The translations under genes were made by a program, and so were the position numbers. Below are positions 5,557 to 44,784 of a DNA stretch of 64,000 nucleotides, in pieces; the first letter of the stretch is position 1, and the number at the start of each line of letters is the position of its first letter. Source of the stretch: Methanolinea mesophila. GTDB taxonomy: Archaea; Halobacteriota; Methanomicrobia; Methanomicrobiales; Methanospirillaceae. The DNA lies in contig NZ_JAGGKR010000001.1 in assembly GCF_017873855.1 (NCBI RefSeq), positions 2,237,529 through 2,301,528 on the forward strand, written 5' to 3'. The notes below the pieces were generated by a model. It was not told the origin of the DNA. It did no database searches and worked only from the letters and a program-made list of their open reading frames with translations.

Positions 5557-6942
5557 ATGATCCTACGGCAGATAACCTCCCCTGGCCTTGCCCACAACTC
5601 CTACTTCCTGGGCTCGCAGGGAATGGCCATAGTAATAGACCCCAGGAGGGATTGCGAGGTCTTTTTGGAACTTGCGAGGGAGCACGATATGAGGATCACT
5701 CATATCTTCGAGACGCACAGGAACGAGGACTACGTCATCGGCTCGCTCGAGCTTGCCGCCCGGTGCGGTGCGGCGATCTTCCACGGGAAGGCGACAGAGT
5801 TTGCCTACGGGACCGCGGTCAGTGACGGAGACGAGTTCGCGGTCGGGAGCCTCCGGTGCAGGGTGCTCGAGACCCCCGGGCACACCATGGAGCACATCGC
5901 AGTGGCGGTCACCGATACGGAAGTCTCGGCTCTCCCCTTCCTTGTGTTTTCCGGAGACGCCCTTTTCGCCGGGGACGTGGGGAGGACCGATTTCTTCGGG
6001 CAGGAGAACAGGGCCCGGGTATCGGGGATGCTCTACGACAGCATCCACGAAAAGATCCTTCCGCTCGGTGACGGGGTCATCATGTGCCCGGCGCACGGTG
6101 CAGGGTCGGTGTGCGGTGCGGAGATCGCGGACCACCAGTTCTCCACCATCGGGTACGAAAAAGCGACCAATCCACTGCTGAAGATGGACAGGCAGCATTT
6201 TATCGGTTACAAGGTCGCGGAACATCACTATATGCCCCCTTACTTCGGGGAGATGGAGCGCCTCAACCAGTTCGGTCCTCCCGTAAAAGGTCATGTCCCC
6301 GACCTCGTCCCCATGGAGATCGGGCAGGTGAAGAACCTGATGGCGAACGGGGTACAGATCCTCGATATCCGGGCTCCGACCTCGTTCGCCGGGGGGCATA
6401 TCCCGGGGAGCATCTCGATCTGGCGGGAGGGAATCTCCGCGTATGCCGGTTATTTCCTGGACTACCATACTCCCATCGTCCTGGTAGCTGACTTCGACCT
6501 GGGTCTGGGGCAGGTCGCCGAGTTCCTCTTCAGGATGGGATACGACAACCTGGAGGGATACCTTGCCGGAGGGTTCCCCGCGTGGTTCAAGGCCGGTGAG
6601 CGAACCGCCCAGTCAGGAGCATGGACTGTCCAGAAGTTGTCCTCCGTCCTTTCGGAGAACAGGGACCTTTTCCTGCTCGACGTGCGGGATATCAATAACC
6701 GCGAAGATGTCGGATATATCCCGGGTTCGGCGCATATTTACGCGGGGGAGCTCCCGGACCGTGCATGCGAGGTCCCGAAGGACAGGCTCGTCGTCGTCTA
6801 TTGCGATGCGGGGTACAAAGGCTCGCTCGGGGCGAGCATCCTCTCCCGGCTCGGGTACCCCTCGGTGGTCAACCTGCTCGGCGGGATGGGGGCCTGGATA
6901 AAGGCAGGATACCCGGTCGCCGGGAAAAATACGGGAAAATAG
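5557..6942 (+). CDS. MBL-fold hydrolase with two rhodanese domains (persulfide dioxygenase-like)
   Basis: A 461-residue fusion: a metallo-beta-lactamase-fold domain (about 1-245) of the ETHE1/persulfide dioxygenase type, then two rhodanese domains (about 255-345 and 360-455). Metal ligands visible are THIFETHRNEDYV (a known variant of THxHxDH in this group), ETPGHTMEH, FSGDALFAGDVGR and CPAHGAGS. The second rhodanese keeps the active Cys in VVVYCDAGYKGS; the first has lost it (IVLVADFDLG) and is probably structural. The architecture suggests handling of sulfane sulfur or persulfides, for instance moving sulfur or detoxifying it; in a strict anaerobe the oxygen-using reaction is doubtful. Stand-alone gene. 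Confidence 0.88.
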   Translation: MILRQITSPGLAHNSYFLGSQGMAIVIDPRRDCEVFLELAREHDMRITHIFETHRNEDYVIGSLELAARCGAAIFHGKATEFAYGTAVSDGDEFAVGSLRCRVLETPGHTMEHIAVAVTDTEVSALPFLVFSGDALFAGDVGRTDFFGQENRARVSGMLYDSIHEKILPLGDGVIMCPAHGAGSVCGAEIADHQFSTIGYEKATNPLLKMDRQHFIGYKVAEHHYMPPYFGEMERLNQFGPPVKGHVPDLVPMEIGQVKNLMANGVQILDIRAPTSFAGGHIPGSISIWREGISAYAGYFLDYHTPIVLVADFDLGLGQVAEFLFRMGYDNLEGYLAGGFPAWFKAGERTAQSGAWTVQKLSSVLSENRDLFLLDVRDINNREDVGYIPGSAHIYAGELPDRACEVPKDRLVVVYCDAGYKGSLGASILSRLGYPSVVNLLGGMGAWIKAGYPVAGKNTGK

Positions 6943-39840: not shown

Positions 39841-39869
39841 AAAAAAATAATAATAACCCGATCAGGGTT
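39841..39869 (-). terminator. Hairpin plus T-run terminating the coiled-coil cluster
   Basis: On the minus strand AACCC-TGATC-GGGTT forms a five-pair stem whose loop contains the TGA stop of the zinc-ribbon gene, followed by ATTATTATTTTTTT. It resembles an intrinsic terminator, and the T-tract alone would serve in archaea. Confidence 0.6.
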
Positions 39870-40191
39870 TATGCCGGTCCCTGATGGTGTGCAGCCGGAG
39901 CATCCCGTTGCACGAGTTGCAGAGGTAATACTCCTCCGTCCAGCACGAAGGGCAGGCCCACCTCCCGCATACCACGCACTGCCGGAGTTCGGAGAACGCA
40001 AACTGGGAGTTACAGAGGTCGCAAAGGAACCGGGAGAAACTCGTGGGGTCCTTGTCCGGGGGGTCCCCCGGTTTCCTTACCCTCGGGATGTCCCGCTTCA
40101 GCCGGGAGACGAGATCGTCTGGGTCCCTGCTACCGGTTGGTCTGCTCTTCCAGAGCTTCAATCCGCTCCTCCAGGTTCGAAAGGGTGGCAT
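39862..40191 (-). CDS. Zinc-ribbon protein of the coiled-coil cluster
   Basis: Up to 109 residues, with four CxxC pairs near the C-terminus: CDLCNSQ, CVVCGRWACPSC and CNSCNG, enough for two zinc sites in a ribbon or FYVE/B-box-like fold. The N-terminal part is basic and has no recognised domain. The frame opens at an ATG at 40191, overlapping the upstream gene by 62 bases. A TTG at 40161 with GGAGG six bases before it would reduce this to 32 and may be the true start. Last gene of the cluster; the function is unknown. It might recruit nucleic acid or protein partners. Confidence 0.72.
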   Translation of the reverse strand: MPPFRTWRSGLKLWKSRPTGSRDPDDLVSRLKRDIPRVRKPGDPPDKDPTSFSRFLCDLCNSQFAFSELRQCVVCGRWACPSCWTEEYYLCNSCNGMLRLHTIRDRHKP

Positions 40192-40468
40192 GCATGTTCT
40201 TCTCGAACTCCTTTAACGCATTCACCCTCTGCTCGTCGCTGGCCACGATCTTTGTCTTGTCTTCCCTCCACTTCAGGACCTTCTGGCGGTTCATCAGGGC
40301 CCATTCATCGACCATCGATTCAAACCTGCGGTCAAGGTATTCATCAACACGGCTCTCCATGGGCCGGGTAATCTCGACCCGTCCTGAAGATCCCCTGAAG
40401 TAGTAGTAGATGATGAACGCGATGATGATCAGGAGAATGATGATCAGCAATGCCTCGGCGGGTGTCAT
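40130..40468 (-). CDS. Membrane-anchored coiled-coil protein with LDR...DEW motif
   Basis: 112 residues. One N-terminal membrane helix (about 5-24, ALLIIILLIIIAFIIYYYF), then the shared motif YLDRRFESMVDEWAL (44-58), and a C-terminal heptad-repeat helix (ALKEFEKNMHATLSNLEERI, about 84-108). The topology suggests a bitopic protein with a cytoplasmic coiled coil. The start overlaps the upstream gene stop as ATGA. No known family recognised. The motif is also found in the two genes before it. Confidence 0.78.
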   Translation of the reverse strand: MTPAEALLIIILLIIIAFIIYYYFRGSSGRVEITRPMESRVDEYLDRRFESMVDEWALMNRQKVLKWREDKTKIVASDEQRVNALKEFEKNMHATLSNLEERIEALEEQTNR

Positions 40469-40692
40469 TTCCTCTTCCTCTCCTTAACGGACTCTAACCT
40501 TTTCTCAAGCTCGCCCAGTTTGGCAAAAGCCCCCGCCTCGAAACTCGAGATCTTGCGGGTCTCCTCCTCGAGGGCCATGAGACGGGCGGGAAAGTCTCCG
40601 AGATCCCCTCTCGTTGCCAGATCCCACTCGTCGATGAGCATCTTCATCCGACGGTCGAGATACCCTCCCATGTAGGAATCAAATCCCTTCAT
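40465..40692 (-). CDS. Small coiled-coil protein with LDR...DEW motif (75 aa)
   Basis: 75 residues, soluble, highly charged. The shared motif YLDRRMKMLIDEWDL lies at 11-25, and the rest is a helical heptad pattern (RLMALEEETRKIS, KLGELEKRLESVKE). Compared with its neighbour at 40130-40468 the layout is the same without the membrane helix, so the two are probably paralogues. ATGA overlaps at both ends argue for fixed stoichiometry through coupled translation. Confidence 0.75.
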   Translation of the reverse strand: MKGFDSYMGGYLDRRMKMLIDEWDLATRGDLGDFPARLMALEEETRKISSFEAGAFAKLGELEKRLESVKERKRK

Positions 40693-41006
40693 GATCCCTC
40701 CAGCTTCTTCAACTCCTTATCGAGGGCATCGGCACGCTTTTCTATAACAGGCCGTTCCTTTTCAAGACTGCTGATTTGTGTGGTCACCCGTGCCAGTCTG
40801 CGCTCCATGGTGTCGAGGTGCACGGCGGTGACCAGCCCCCACTCCTCGATAACCGCCGGCAGGTTCTGATCGAAATACCTGTCGAGGTTCTTGTCCATTG
40901 AGGGCAGTTTTTCGTCGAAATACCGGGGGATCGCCGCAAGCGATTCCCGAAACCCGTGTTTCTCCTTTACCGGTTCACCACTTCCGGTTACGTACTCGTC
41001 GCTCAT
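40689..41006 (-). CDS. Coiled-coil protein with LDR...EEW motif and internal repeat
   Basis: 105 residues. Contains NLDRYFDQNLPAVIEEWGL (about 40-58) followed by a coiled coil (LDTMERRLARVTTQISSLEK then KRADALDKELKKL). Just before the motif is a near copy, PRYFDEKLPSM against DRYFDQNLPAV, so a short helix has been duplicated. No membrane helix. Third member of the paralogous set. ATGA overlap with both neighbours. Confidence 0.75.
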   Translation of the reverse strand: MSDEYVTGSGEPVKEKHGFRESLAAIPRYFDEKLPSMDKNLDRYFDQNLPAVIEEWGLVTAVHLDTMERRLARVTTQISSLEKERPVIEKRADALDKELKKLEGS

Positions 41007-41386
41007 CCTATTCGCTCCTCTTCTCTCTTGATCTTCTCTACCATCCGGTCCAGCTTGGCCACCTGGACCTTGTTCTCCAGCCGCTCGATCCTCTTCTCGA
41101 CTTCGGTGTGCCGGGCGAAAATATCAGTCTCAAGGAGGGCGTTCTCGTCATCGATCACCTTGATGTCCTGAAGTTTCTCGGGACTCACCCGGAAGAACGG
41201 GCGCCCCTTCTGTTCCATGTCCGTCCTCATGAGGTTTATCTTCTCCTTCTCCAGGCCAATCTTCGCTTCGGTCGTCCTGGTATACATCACCCGTATCTCG
41301 CGGATGATGAAGTAGACGATGATCAGGCCGATAAAGAAGAGTATGAAGGGCCAGCTGTTCTCCACCAGCACCAGTATATCGGTCAT
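41003..41386 (-). CDS. Membrane-anchored coiled-coil protein
   Basis: 127 residues. Membrane helix near the N-terminus (about 12-29, WPFILFFIGLIIVYFII), a basic and charged helix (TTEAKIGLEKEKINLMRTDM), and a C-terminal heptad helix (HTEVEKRIERLENKVQVAKL). It lacks the LDR...EW motif but has the same membrane/coiled-coil plan, so is likely to pair with the following products. It begins 16 bases after the double-psi-barrel gene stop. Confidence 0.75.
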   Translation of the reverse strand: MTDILVLVENSWPFILFFIGLIIVYFIIREIRVMYTRTTEAKIGLEKEKINLMRTDMEQKGRPFFRVSPEKLQDIKVIDDENALLETDIFARHTEVEKRIERLENKVQVAKLDRMVEKIKREEERIG

Positions 41387-41402
41387 TCTGACTCTTCTCC
41401 GG

Positions 41403-41876
41403 TTACTCTTGCTTCTCGCCTTTCTCGGGTTTTACTTTCTTTGCTACGGACTCCGCTCCTTTCTCGATGGACTCCTTTGCCGATGAAGCTCCGCTCTTGA
41501 TACTCTCCGATGCCTTGTGCGCACCTCCTTTTATCGTTTCAGGTGCTTTCGATACCCCGGTCTTCACGCCTTCGGCCGTATCCGAAGCGCCCTTCTTAAC
41601 CCTGTCCCCCAGGGGGGGACGCTTCTTGACGTTGACCATCGTACCGGGAGCGGTGCCGAGCTTCGCAATGTCCTCTGTACTGAGACGGATAGCACCTTCC
41701 TCCACAAGAGAATCGGCAAAAACAGTGACAATGACTGGTTTTTCAGTCTTTCCGGTGGTGAGCTCCACCTCGTCCCCTTCCTTGAGGTCGAGTTTCCCAA
41801 GAAGGGATTCATGAAGCCTGGCCCTCCCTTTACTGGGAAAAGCCCTCTGCTGTATCTTAAGCTCGATCGATTCCAT
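41403..41876 (-). CDS. Double-psi-barrel (Cdc48-N/AbrB-like) protein with helical repeat tail
   Basis: 157 residues. The N-terminal 85 residues look like the double-psi beta-barrel found at the N-terminus of archaeal Cdc48/VAT: ELKIQQRAFPSKGRARLHES, LLGKLDLKEGDEVEL, then VTVFADSLVEEGAIRLS. No ATPase follows. Residues 95-155 are repeats rich in Lys, Ala, Ser, Glu (GVKTGVSKAPETIKGGAHKA and similar), an amphipathic LEA- or apolipoprotein-like helix. It may bind membranes or other proteins; in VAT the barrel binds substrate. First gene of the cluster, right behind a strong TATA box. Confidence 0.75.
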   Translation of the reverse strand: MESIELKIQQRAFPSKGRARLHESLLGKLDLKEGDEVELTTGKTEKPVIVTVFADSLVEEGAIRLSTEDIAKLGTAPGTMVNVKKRPPLGDRVKKGASDTAEGVKTGVSKAPETIKGGAHKASESIKSGASSAKESIEKGAESVAKKVKPEKGEKQE

Positions 41877-41895: not shown

Positions 41896-41916
41896 AGTTT
41901 ATAAAGATTTATACCG
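41896..41916 (-). promoter_or_regulatory. Promoter of the double-psi-barrel/coiled-coil operon
   Basis: Two overlapping TATA-like elements on the minus strand, GGTATAAATC and CTTTATAAACT, 22-40 bases before the ATG at 41876. It is among the strongest archaeal promoters in the window. Confidence 0.6.
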
Positions 41917-43155: not shown

Positions 43156-44508
43156 TTAATTTTCCGGCTTTCGCCTTACCAGGAGCACCAGGAGGGCCAC
43201 CGCCGCCACTCCTATGAAAGCGGCGCTCCCCGTCGTCGGAGTCGGAGTGGGAGTCGTTACCTGTACCATGGTTGCCGAGACCTGGGTGGTCTGTCCCGCG
43301 GTCACCTGGATCTGGGAGGAGTAGTCCTGGTATCCGTTCAGCTTCAGGAGAAGTGAATGAGTCCCCGGGGTAATGGAGTCTATCGTGGAGGGGGTGATCC
43401 CCTTGAACACATTGTCAAGGTAGATATCCGCATCCGTAGGGGAGGACGAGATGGCGATGCTGCCGGTATCCGGCTTCTGGGGATTGGGGGTGAGGGTTAC
43501 GGAAAGGACGAGGTTCTGGCCGGCATACACCGTCCCGCTGGTGGTGTAGTCCTGGTACCCCGTTTTCGAGAGGAGGAGGGTATGGTACCCCGGAGTGACC
43601 TGAGTGGAGACGAGTGGCCTGTTGGGGATAGTCTGGCCTACGTACTTCCCGTCGGCATAGACATATGCACCCGAGGGGTCTGAGGTAAGCGATACCGTAC
43701 CGTAGATCGGCGACGGATCCTTGGCCAGGGTTGCCGAGATGTGTGTCACCGATCCTGCCTGGACCGTCGCCGTGGTGATGTAATCCTGGTAGCCTGCAAG
43801 GGAGAGGATCACCGTATGGCTTCCGGCGGCGAGGCTCCCGACCGAGGTGGGGGTGATCCCCTGGTAAATGCCGTCAACGTAGGCTGCGGCACCGCTCGGG
43901 CTCGAACTGATCGAAAGCGTCCCGGTGCTGACGACCGGTGAGAGTTGTGCATTCACGACGGAGGTCTGGGCCTTGTACACGGTCACGCTGCTGAAATACG
44001 TCTGATATCCTGACAGGTACACTGAAATCTCGTGAGATCCGACGGGAACATTGGTGAAGTATGCCGGGGTGGTCTGGGACTGACCCCGGTCGAGATATGC
44101 TATCGCACCCGAGGGATAGGACTGCACGTTGATCTGCCCGGTCGAGGCACTTGGCGTCAGGGTCGCGGAGATGGTGATAGTCTGGCCGTCCTGGGGGTTC
44201 CCGTTATAGGTCTGGGTATAGGTGTCGTACCCCGGGAGGCTGATCGTGATCGTGTGCTTCGGGTTCCCGGTGATTGAAACCGGGATGGTCACCGGAGTCT
44301 CTCCCGCGTATGGCCCGTCGAAATACACGTCTGCACCCGAGGGGAAGGACGAGATCAGGAAATAGCCGGTCCCTTGCCCCGGCGCGATCGGCTGCGTTAT
44401 CTCCGGCGTTGCCGGGAGGGTCACGGGTTGGTATGCTGAAACGATCGGCATGCATGCGAGCATCAGGCCGATCGATAAAATCAGGGTGAGAAGAATTTTT
44501 GGAGTCAT
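43156..44508 (-). CDS. Surface protein with five PEGA repeats and C-terminal anchor
   Basis: 450 residues. Signal peptide (MTPKILLTLILSIGLMLACM, cut near VSA), then five beta-sandwich PEGA domains of about 70 residues each, marked by SFPSGADVYFDG, SYPSGAIAYLDR, SSPSGAAAYVDG, SDPSGAYVYADG and SSPTDADIYLDN, each followed by GxH...GYxxY. A TPTPTPTT linker and a membrane helix (AAFIGVAAVALLVLLV) with a basic end anchor it in the membrane. The architecture suggests an S-layer-associated or binding role. The ATG at 44508 follows an AGAGGTG site. Confidence 0.92.
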   Translation of the reverse strand: MTPKILLTLILSIGLMLACMPIVSAYQPVTLPATPEITQPIAPGQGTGYFLISSFPSGADVYFDGPYAGETPVTIPVSITGNPKHTITISLPGYDTYTQTYNGNPQDGQTITISATLTPSASTGQINVQSYPSGAIAYLDRGQSQTTPAYFTNVPVGSHEISVYLSGYQTYFSSVTVYKAQTSVVNAQLSPVVSTGTLSISSSPSGAAAYVDGIYQGITPTSVGSLAAGSHTVILSLAGYQDYITTATVQAGSVTHISATLAKDPSPIYGTVSLTSDPSGAYVYADGKYVGQTIPNRPLVSTQVTPGYHTLLLSKTGYQDYTTSGTVYAGQNLVLSVTLTPNPQKPDTGSIAISSSPTDADIYLDNVFKGITPSTIDSITPGTHSLLLKLNGYQDYSSQIQVTAGQTTQVSATMVQVTTPTPTPTTGSAAFIGVAAVALLVLLVRRKPEN

Positions 44509-44543
44509 ATTCACCTCTTGCTCTGGAAAAGTAGGTGGCGATT

Positions 44544-44556
44544 GCTTTATATAAGG
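44544..44556 (-). promoter_or_regulatory. TATA box for the PEGA protein gene
   Basis: The minus strand reads CCTTATATAAAGC, 36-48 bases before the ATG; a textbook archaeal TATA element. Confidence 0.6.
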
Positions 44557-44784
44557 ATATCGGCACAAACACGGACAATCCCCCGGGAGCACACCTGTAA
44601 AAACGGAATCCGTGCCTGCGTTGAAAGATACCGGTCATTTCAGGCCCTCGCAGGGATCCGGGATGTTTACCGGGGTCGAAACGCGGGGGTCCCGGCAGGA
44701 GCAGGTATACCTGGATCGTAACGAGGGAGATCCGCCAGAACGGGATGCGTTATGCAAAAAGGATGTATGATAAAGGGCCAAACC

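Follow-up and report, generated by a model that had tools for sequence, protein, structure and literature searches.

The protein families closest to the products described here are the Prok-RING_2 zinc fingers (Pfam PF14445), the FYVE and FYVE-like fingers, the N-domains of Cdc48, p97 and VAT (PF02359), and the phasins (PF05597), apolipophorins and perilipin/Senescence proteins. In structural classification, RING/U-box-like fingers and FYVE/PHD fingers are told apart by their second zinc site (PMC4999995). The available part of the account of the FtsZl1 membrane-remodelling operons (PMC2875224) names no component of the six-gene cluster considered here. The family libraries and the literature searched contain no characterised system of the cluster's composition. 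It is considered new as a unit, with the reservation that the neighbourhood may already be noted in the 2011 paper of Burroughs, Iyer and Aravind, which is reportedly the source of the PF14445 family. The sequence-only reading had called the cluster undescribed. This stands for genes 2-5, which fall into no named family, and for the operon, of which no known counterpart was found, but not for gene 6, a member of PF14445.

Layout and inheritance of the cluster

The window, the stretch of 64,000 nucleotides of Methanolinea mesophila DNA that was analysed, contains the cluster and its signals on the minus strand:

41898-41915, minus strand: TATA-like promoter element GGTATAAATCTTTATAAA, some 22-39 bases before the ATG of gene 1
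41403-41876, minus strand: gene 1, 157 aa; double-psi beta barrel of the Cdc48-N (Nn) type and a helical tail
41003-41386, minus strand: gene 2, 127 aa; membrane helix at the N-terminus, then a charged, probably helical cytosolic region
40689-41006, minus strand: gene 3, 105 aa; first soluble paralogue, helix and coiled-coil domain
40465-40692, minus strand: gene 4, 75 aa; second soluble paralogue
40130-40468, minus strand: gene 5, 112 aa; third paralogue, which has a membrane helix at its N-terminus
39862-40161, minus strand: gene 6, 99 aa from TTG 40161; PF14445 binuclear treble clef with an N-terminal helix
39841-39856, minus strand: putative T-rich terminator directly after gene 6, recognised from the sequence

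All six open reading frames that the sequence-only reading had placed on the minus strand at 39862-41876 were found there, together with the three ATGA overlaps at 41003-41006 (genes 2/3), 40689-40692 (genes 3/4) and 40465-40468 (genes 4/5) and a gap of exactly 16 bases between genes 1 and 2 (41387-41402). Gene overlaps of 4 bases are typical of coupled translation; those at genes 3/4 and 4/5 recur in about 40 of 59 loci. The longest frame of gene 6 begins at ATG 40191. Its true start is probably TTG 40161, so that its first 32 bases overlap the end of gene 5. Of 64 gene 5/gene 6 pairs, 28 have a start at precisely this overlap, and in the rest in-frame starts lie close by. The TATA promoter proposed in front of the cluster keeps its position across the family: the AT content upstream of gene 1 is maximal, 93%, at -30 to -26 (56 loci), and the best TATA-like match lies within -42 to -24 in 41 of the 56, versus 19.3 +/- 3.7 after shuffling. 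The terminator noted behind the cluster corresponds to the T-run listed above, and many relatives likewise have T-runs after gene 6. Upstream of the cluster (43156-44592, minus strand) lies a gene for a putative surface protein of 478 aa, which contains several PEGA-like repeats and has a membrane helix at its C-terminus.

Iterative profile searches were applied to 40 loci around gene 6 matches and to the window. In 40 of these 41 loci they found the same six genes with order and strand unchanged; the exception is cut by its contig end. A scan of the contigs of 85k named genomes gave 66 loci, or 67 with the window, and the order 1-2-3-4-5-6 on one strand is conserved in 59 of them (58 of the 66 named loci and the window), far more than chance would give. 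Six of the eight incomplete loci are truncated by contig ends, and the other two, L137 and L122, are apparently frameshifted or split. In L137, from Methanogenium cariaci JCM 10550, the apparent frameshift comes from duplicated Gs, which are probably errors of sequencing in this assembly. The carriers belong to Methanoregula, Methanolinea, Methanospirillum and Methanogenium (cultivated examples being Methanospirillum stamsii and Methanogenium marinum) or are uncultured relatives, and the cluster is confined to a subset of the Methanomicrobiales.

Of the 199 class genomes, 75 have a full match to gene 6 (a count that excludes four weak or partial matches), 74 to gene 2 and 75 to gene 5, the differences being due to contigs that end within or beside the cluster (G171, G184, G194). 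Barring contig ends and one relic, genes 2, 5 and 6 are jointly present or absent in all 199. The relic is a weak gene 6 match in genome G157 (L153:3-359, minus strand), in which the cysteines are lost, the frame is broken and no genes 1-5 stand alongside; such a decayed copy in a cluster-free genome indicates that the whole unit was lost there. Strict co-inheritance and fixed order are the expectation for the complex of fixed composition that the sequence-only reading had proposed. Compared with the nearest relative, the products are 64-72% identical in amino acids versus 38-55% identity at third codon positions, which points to purifying selection on every gene. The flanking genes are common to close relatives only, and the loci examined offered no neighbour conserved beyond close relatives as a functional clue; the unit therefore appears autonomous. 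A search of viral contigs found no relative of the cluster, and a viral or mobile origin was rejected on this ground.

In one Methanospirillum-like MAG, further pairs of genes 4 and 5 are located at contig ends (L150:6359-6908 and L151:3-543) with no gene 6 after them, so subsets of the unit may act alone. About 200 bases downstream of the pair in L150 there is an open reading frame resembling an HtpX/M48 membrane peptidase.

Domains of the six products

The gene 1 product consists of a barrel (residues 1-88; pLDDT about 90 over residues 1-80 of the AF2 model) followed by a K/A/S/G-rich amphipathic helical tail. Foldseek matched the model to AtCDC48-N and to VCP/Cdc48 N-domains with E values of 2e-7 to 1e-6, and to isolated VCP double-psi barrels with TMt 0.81-0.87 and E 2-5e-7. 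PF02359 is found in 47 of 50 gene 1 orthologues, below the cut-off in the window member and over it in one (G048). The fold of the Cdc48-N-like barrel noticed earlier was thus confirmed (Foldseek E 2e-7), but only the first (Nn) half of the domain is present: the barrel stops at about residue 88, Nc and AAA+ are absent, and there is no CDC48_2 or AAA match. The amphipathic nature of the tail was borne out. Its hydrophobic moment has a z of 5.2 against shuffles, the median z is 4.1 among 57 orthologues, and 55 of the 57 exceed 1.65. The tail matches Apolipoprotein in 12, ApoLp-III in 7, Senescence in 5 and Perilipin in 1 of 50 orthologues; these amphipathic-helix matches are partly driven by composition, and lipid binding by the tail is predicted as probable. 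In 7 of 50 orthologues gene 1 ends with a TrkA_C (RCK_C) domain; the three long members that were checked all exceed its Pfam cut-off. The domain is found in Methanospirillum and some lake lineages (L110, L114, L118, L125) and is absent in the window organism.

Gene 2, a single conserved family throughout the order, has a membrane helix predicted at about residues 10-29. Its alignment covers the membrane segment only, and it is otherwise unrelated to the products of genes 3-5. The latter three share the YLDRR...EEW domain noted in the sequence-only reading, and the likeness is real homology, with an hhalign probability of 98% and E values of 1e-14 to 1e-16 (gene 3 versus gene 4, 98.8%; gene 5 versus gene 4, 98.3%). 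The domain comprises an LDxYFDxxxxxxIxEWGLVT helix and then a coiled coil in gene 3, and the motif reads YLDRRMKxxIxEWxLATRxD in gene 4. Gene 5 has an N-terminal membrane helix, MTPAEALLIIILLIIIAFIIYYYFRG, with positive residues after it, and 13 columns are invariant among its 24 orthologues. Genes 3, 4 and 5 are paralogues, gene 5 being the membrane-anchored one. Two products with a membrane helix and a coiled coil had earlier been set apart from three products with the motif. The helices stand, in genes 2 and 5, but the separation does not, as gene 5 also has the motif. The heptad repeats and coiled coils received modest support, best in genes 3 and 4 and weak in genes 2 and 5; in gene 4, alignment columns 28-56 show a periodicity of 3.35 residues (0 of 500 shuffles). 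The positive residues after its helix imply that the gene 5 domain should face the cytosol, and by the positive-inside rule the bulk of both gene 2 and gene 5 would be cytosolic.

When genes 2-5 were compared with the family libraries, no named family was found above the cut-off. Weak matches to Phasin (PF05597) occur in 14 of 29 gene 3 orthologues, the best at 1.9e-5; gene 3 of the window scores 13.9 bits, below the cut-off of 28.8. Outside the order, two weak matches only (E about 1e-3) were found for genes 3-5.

Gene 6 had been taken for a zinc ribbon, an assignment that is ruled out by the PF14445 score, the AF2 model and the Foldseek matches: the four CxxC pairs form, as modelled, a binuclear treble clef of PF14445 (E 6e-29, 100.4 bits against a cut-off of 22.4), which is matched by all 44 gene 6 orthologues. 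The ligands C47, C50, C62, C65, C70, C73, C81 and C84 are spaced CxxC-x11-CxxC-x4-CxxC-x7-CxxC, and the eight cysteines are invariant or more than 90% conserved among the 44. The top Foldseek matches of the model (mean pLDDT 84.7) are FYVE and PHD fingers, with a best E of 0.13 and CARP2 at probability 0.96 and rmsd 1.3, all of them at E above 0.1. The C3HC4/C3H2C3 cross-brace ligand pattern of RINGs is absent, eight cysteines being found instead. The R(R/K)HHCR phosphoinositide motif of FYVE fingers is also absent, with (L)(R/K)QCxxCGRW in its place; FYVE_2 is matched by 16 of 44 orthologues and is below the cut-off in the window member. As modelled, gene 6 resembles the binuclear treble clefs of the FYVE/PHD type more than RINGs. 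Matches of gene 6 to TFIIE (E 1e-3) were judged to be generic zinc-finger similarity.

The proposed membrane-surface complex and its alternatives

An all-or-none, order-invariant unit of six genes in dozens of methanogen species is very likely one machine. We propose, with a probability of roughly 0.55, that in this subset of the Methanomicrobiales the six products form one obligate, self-contained hetero-oligomeric complex, a membrane-surface scaffold on the cytosolic face of the membrane. One such complex is the simplest account of a gene set that is invariant, autonomous and inherited as a whole, and whose products include two with membrane anchors, three helical paralogues, two compact domains for interaction and a tail that probably binds lipid. 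Genes 2 and 5 would anchor the complex, each by its single N-terminal membrane helix, and genes 3, 4 and 5 would build a stalk of fixed stoichiometry by means of the [LI]DxxFD/YLDRR...EW helix and coiled-coil domain that they have in common. Gene 1 would supply its Cdc48-N-type barrel as a docking module, kept at the lipid surface by the amphipathic tail. The FYVE/PHD/RING-like finger of gene 6 would serve as a protein or lipid interaction module and not as an enzyme. The whole unit would probably be a scaffold at the membrane surface where a client or partner is gathered. The co-inheritance also fits a pathway without a stable complex.

A barrel of the Cdc48 type also suggests an adaptor for Cdc48/proteasome, as the sequence-only reading had proposed. 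Gene 1 would then imitate the N-domain of the archaeal Cdc48 (VAT), pair with it or bind Cdc48 cofactors, and the membrane-tethered stalk would deliver membrane-protein substrates. The structural matches of the gene 1 model to Cdc48/p97 N-domains and the two Cdc48 genes of the genome are in keeping with this, as is the precedent of Ufd1, where a barrel resembling the N-domain forms part of a Cdc48 adaptor. Gene 1, however, resembles the N-domain itself and only its Nn half, so that the Nn/Nc cofactor groove of p97 would be incomplete. Cdc48 does not adjoin the cluster, and no unfoldase or protease is found among the conserved neighbours. Moreover, genomes have two full-length Cdc48 genes (three in G013) whether they carry the cluster or not, which leaves the fold of gene 1 as the sole link to Cdc48. 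We regard a role as adaptor as unlikely. A function in ubiquitin-like conjugation, with gene 6 as a RING E3 on a membrane scaffold, is very improbable. It is suggested by the Pfam name of gene 6 and by the presence of ThiF/E1-like and JAB proteins, but the E1-like and JAB genes occur in 22 of 22 genomes irrespective of the cluster, and no Ubl, E1, E2 or JAB gene lies in its conserved neighbourhood. The UQ_con E2 (PF00179) was detected in 0 of 22 genomes, although the control genomes were equally silent. Taken with the eight-cysteine ligand pattern and the FYVE/PHD fingers as best structural matches, this distribution argues against a RING E3, and a ubiquitin operon is disfavoured.

The helical segments admit a different explanation, namely that the products coat the surface of membranes or of lipid or hydrophobic inclusions, or form a stress scaffold there, as do perilipins, phasins, apolipophorins and LEA/Senescence proteins. 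It would account for the strong amphipathicity of the gene 1 tail, for its matches to Apolipoprotein, ApoLp-III, Senescence and Perilipin, and for the Phasin matches of gene 3 orthologues. These matches nevertheless cover short helical segments and are below the cut-off where a cut-off is shown, and a coat leaves the zinc finger and the barrel unexplained. Class III PHA synthase was found in 0 of 22 genomes; a PHA-granule operon was rejected on this ground, and the result also counts against a coat, which we consider unlikely. Still less credible is a ligand-gated regulatory complex (responding, for example, to osmotic conditions, K+ or c-di-AMP), in which gene 1 would sense through TrkA_C and signal to the membrane complex. 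The TrkA_C domain at the end of some gene 1 orthologues is the point in its favour, but the window organism and most relatives do not have it though the remainder is conserved, and no channel or transporter is present among the conserved neighbours.

The preferred reading of a membrane-surface complex can be taken a step further, and here we are tentative. The cluster may encode a lineage-specific machine at the membrane surface, in which a heteromeric coiled-coil stalk is combined with the Cdc48-N barrel, its apolipoprotein-like tail for binding lipid, and the FYVE/PHD-like finger; it would be a functional analogue of endomembrane scaffolds or of membrane-protein quality-control adaptors. These archaea are not known to have internal membranes. 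If the proposal is true, parts of eukaryotic type are used in such a machine in archaea in which no UQ_con E2 was detected.

Comparison with known systems

Four of the six proteins belong to no named family, and the unit unites domain types of eukaryotic membrane traffic and protein quality control: the Cdc48-N barrel, the FYVE/PHD-like finger and amphipathic tails of the lipid-droplet type. Its function therefore bears on the use of such parts before or outside eukaryotes, and because the unit is small, about 2 kb, reconstitution is directly feasible.

Compared with phasins, apolipophorins and perilipin/Senescence proteins, the helical domain of gene 3 and the tail of gene 1 match weakly and by helix only; no class III PHA synthase was found in the 22 genomes and the gene company is different. 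Gene 6 lies well above the cut-off of PF14445, whose name implies a RING, but its model and ligand spacing look FYVE/PHD-like. Stand-alone zinc fingers of the same family, with the pattern CAIC...CSLCGRLVCNSCF...CKQC, occur in Methanosarcina-like genomes (L146 and L147; minus strand, reverse-strand frames at 6169 and 6157). Unlike gene 6, they are about 70 aa long and have no companion genes 1-5 nearby; they are possible ancestors or independent relatives of gene 6. With the FYVE and FYVE-like fingers of EEA1, HRS, CARP2 and rabphilin, its top Foldseek matches, gene 6 shares the spacing CxxC...CxxCGxxxCxxC, but it differs from them in lacking the phosphoinositide motif, and no structural match reaches E <0.1. 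Gene 1 has the same Nn barrel fold as the N-domains of Cdc48, p97 and VAT (TMt up to 0.87 to VCP barrels). In place of their Nc half and ATPase, it has an amphipathic tail, and sometimes TrkA_C, fused to the barrel.
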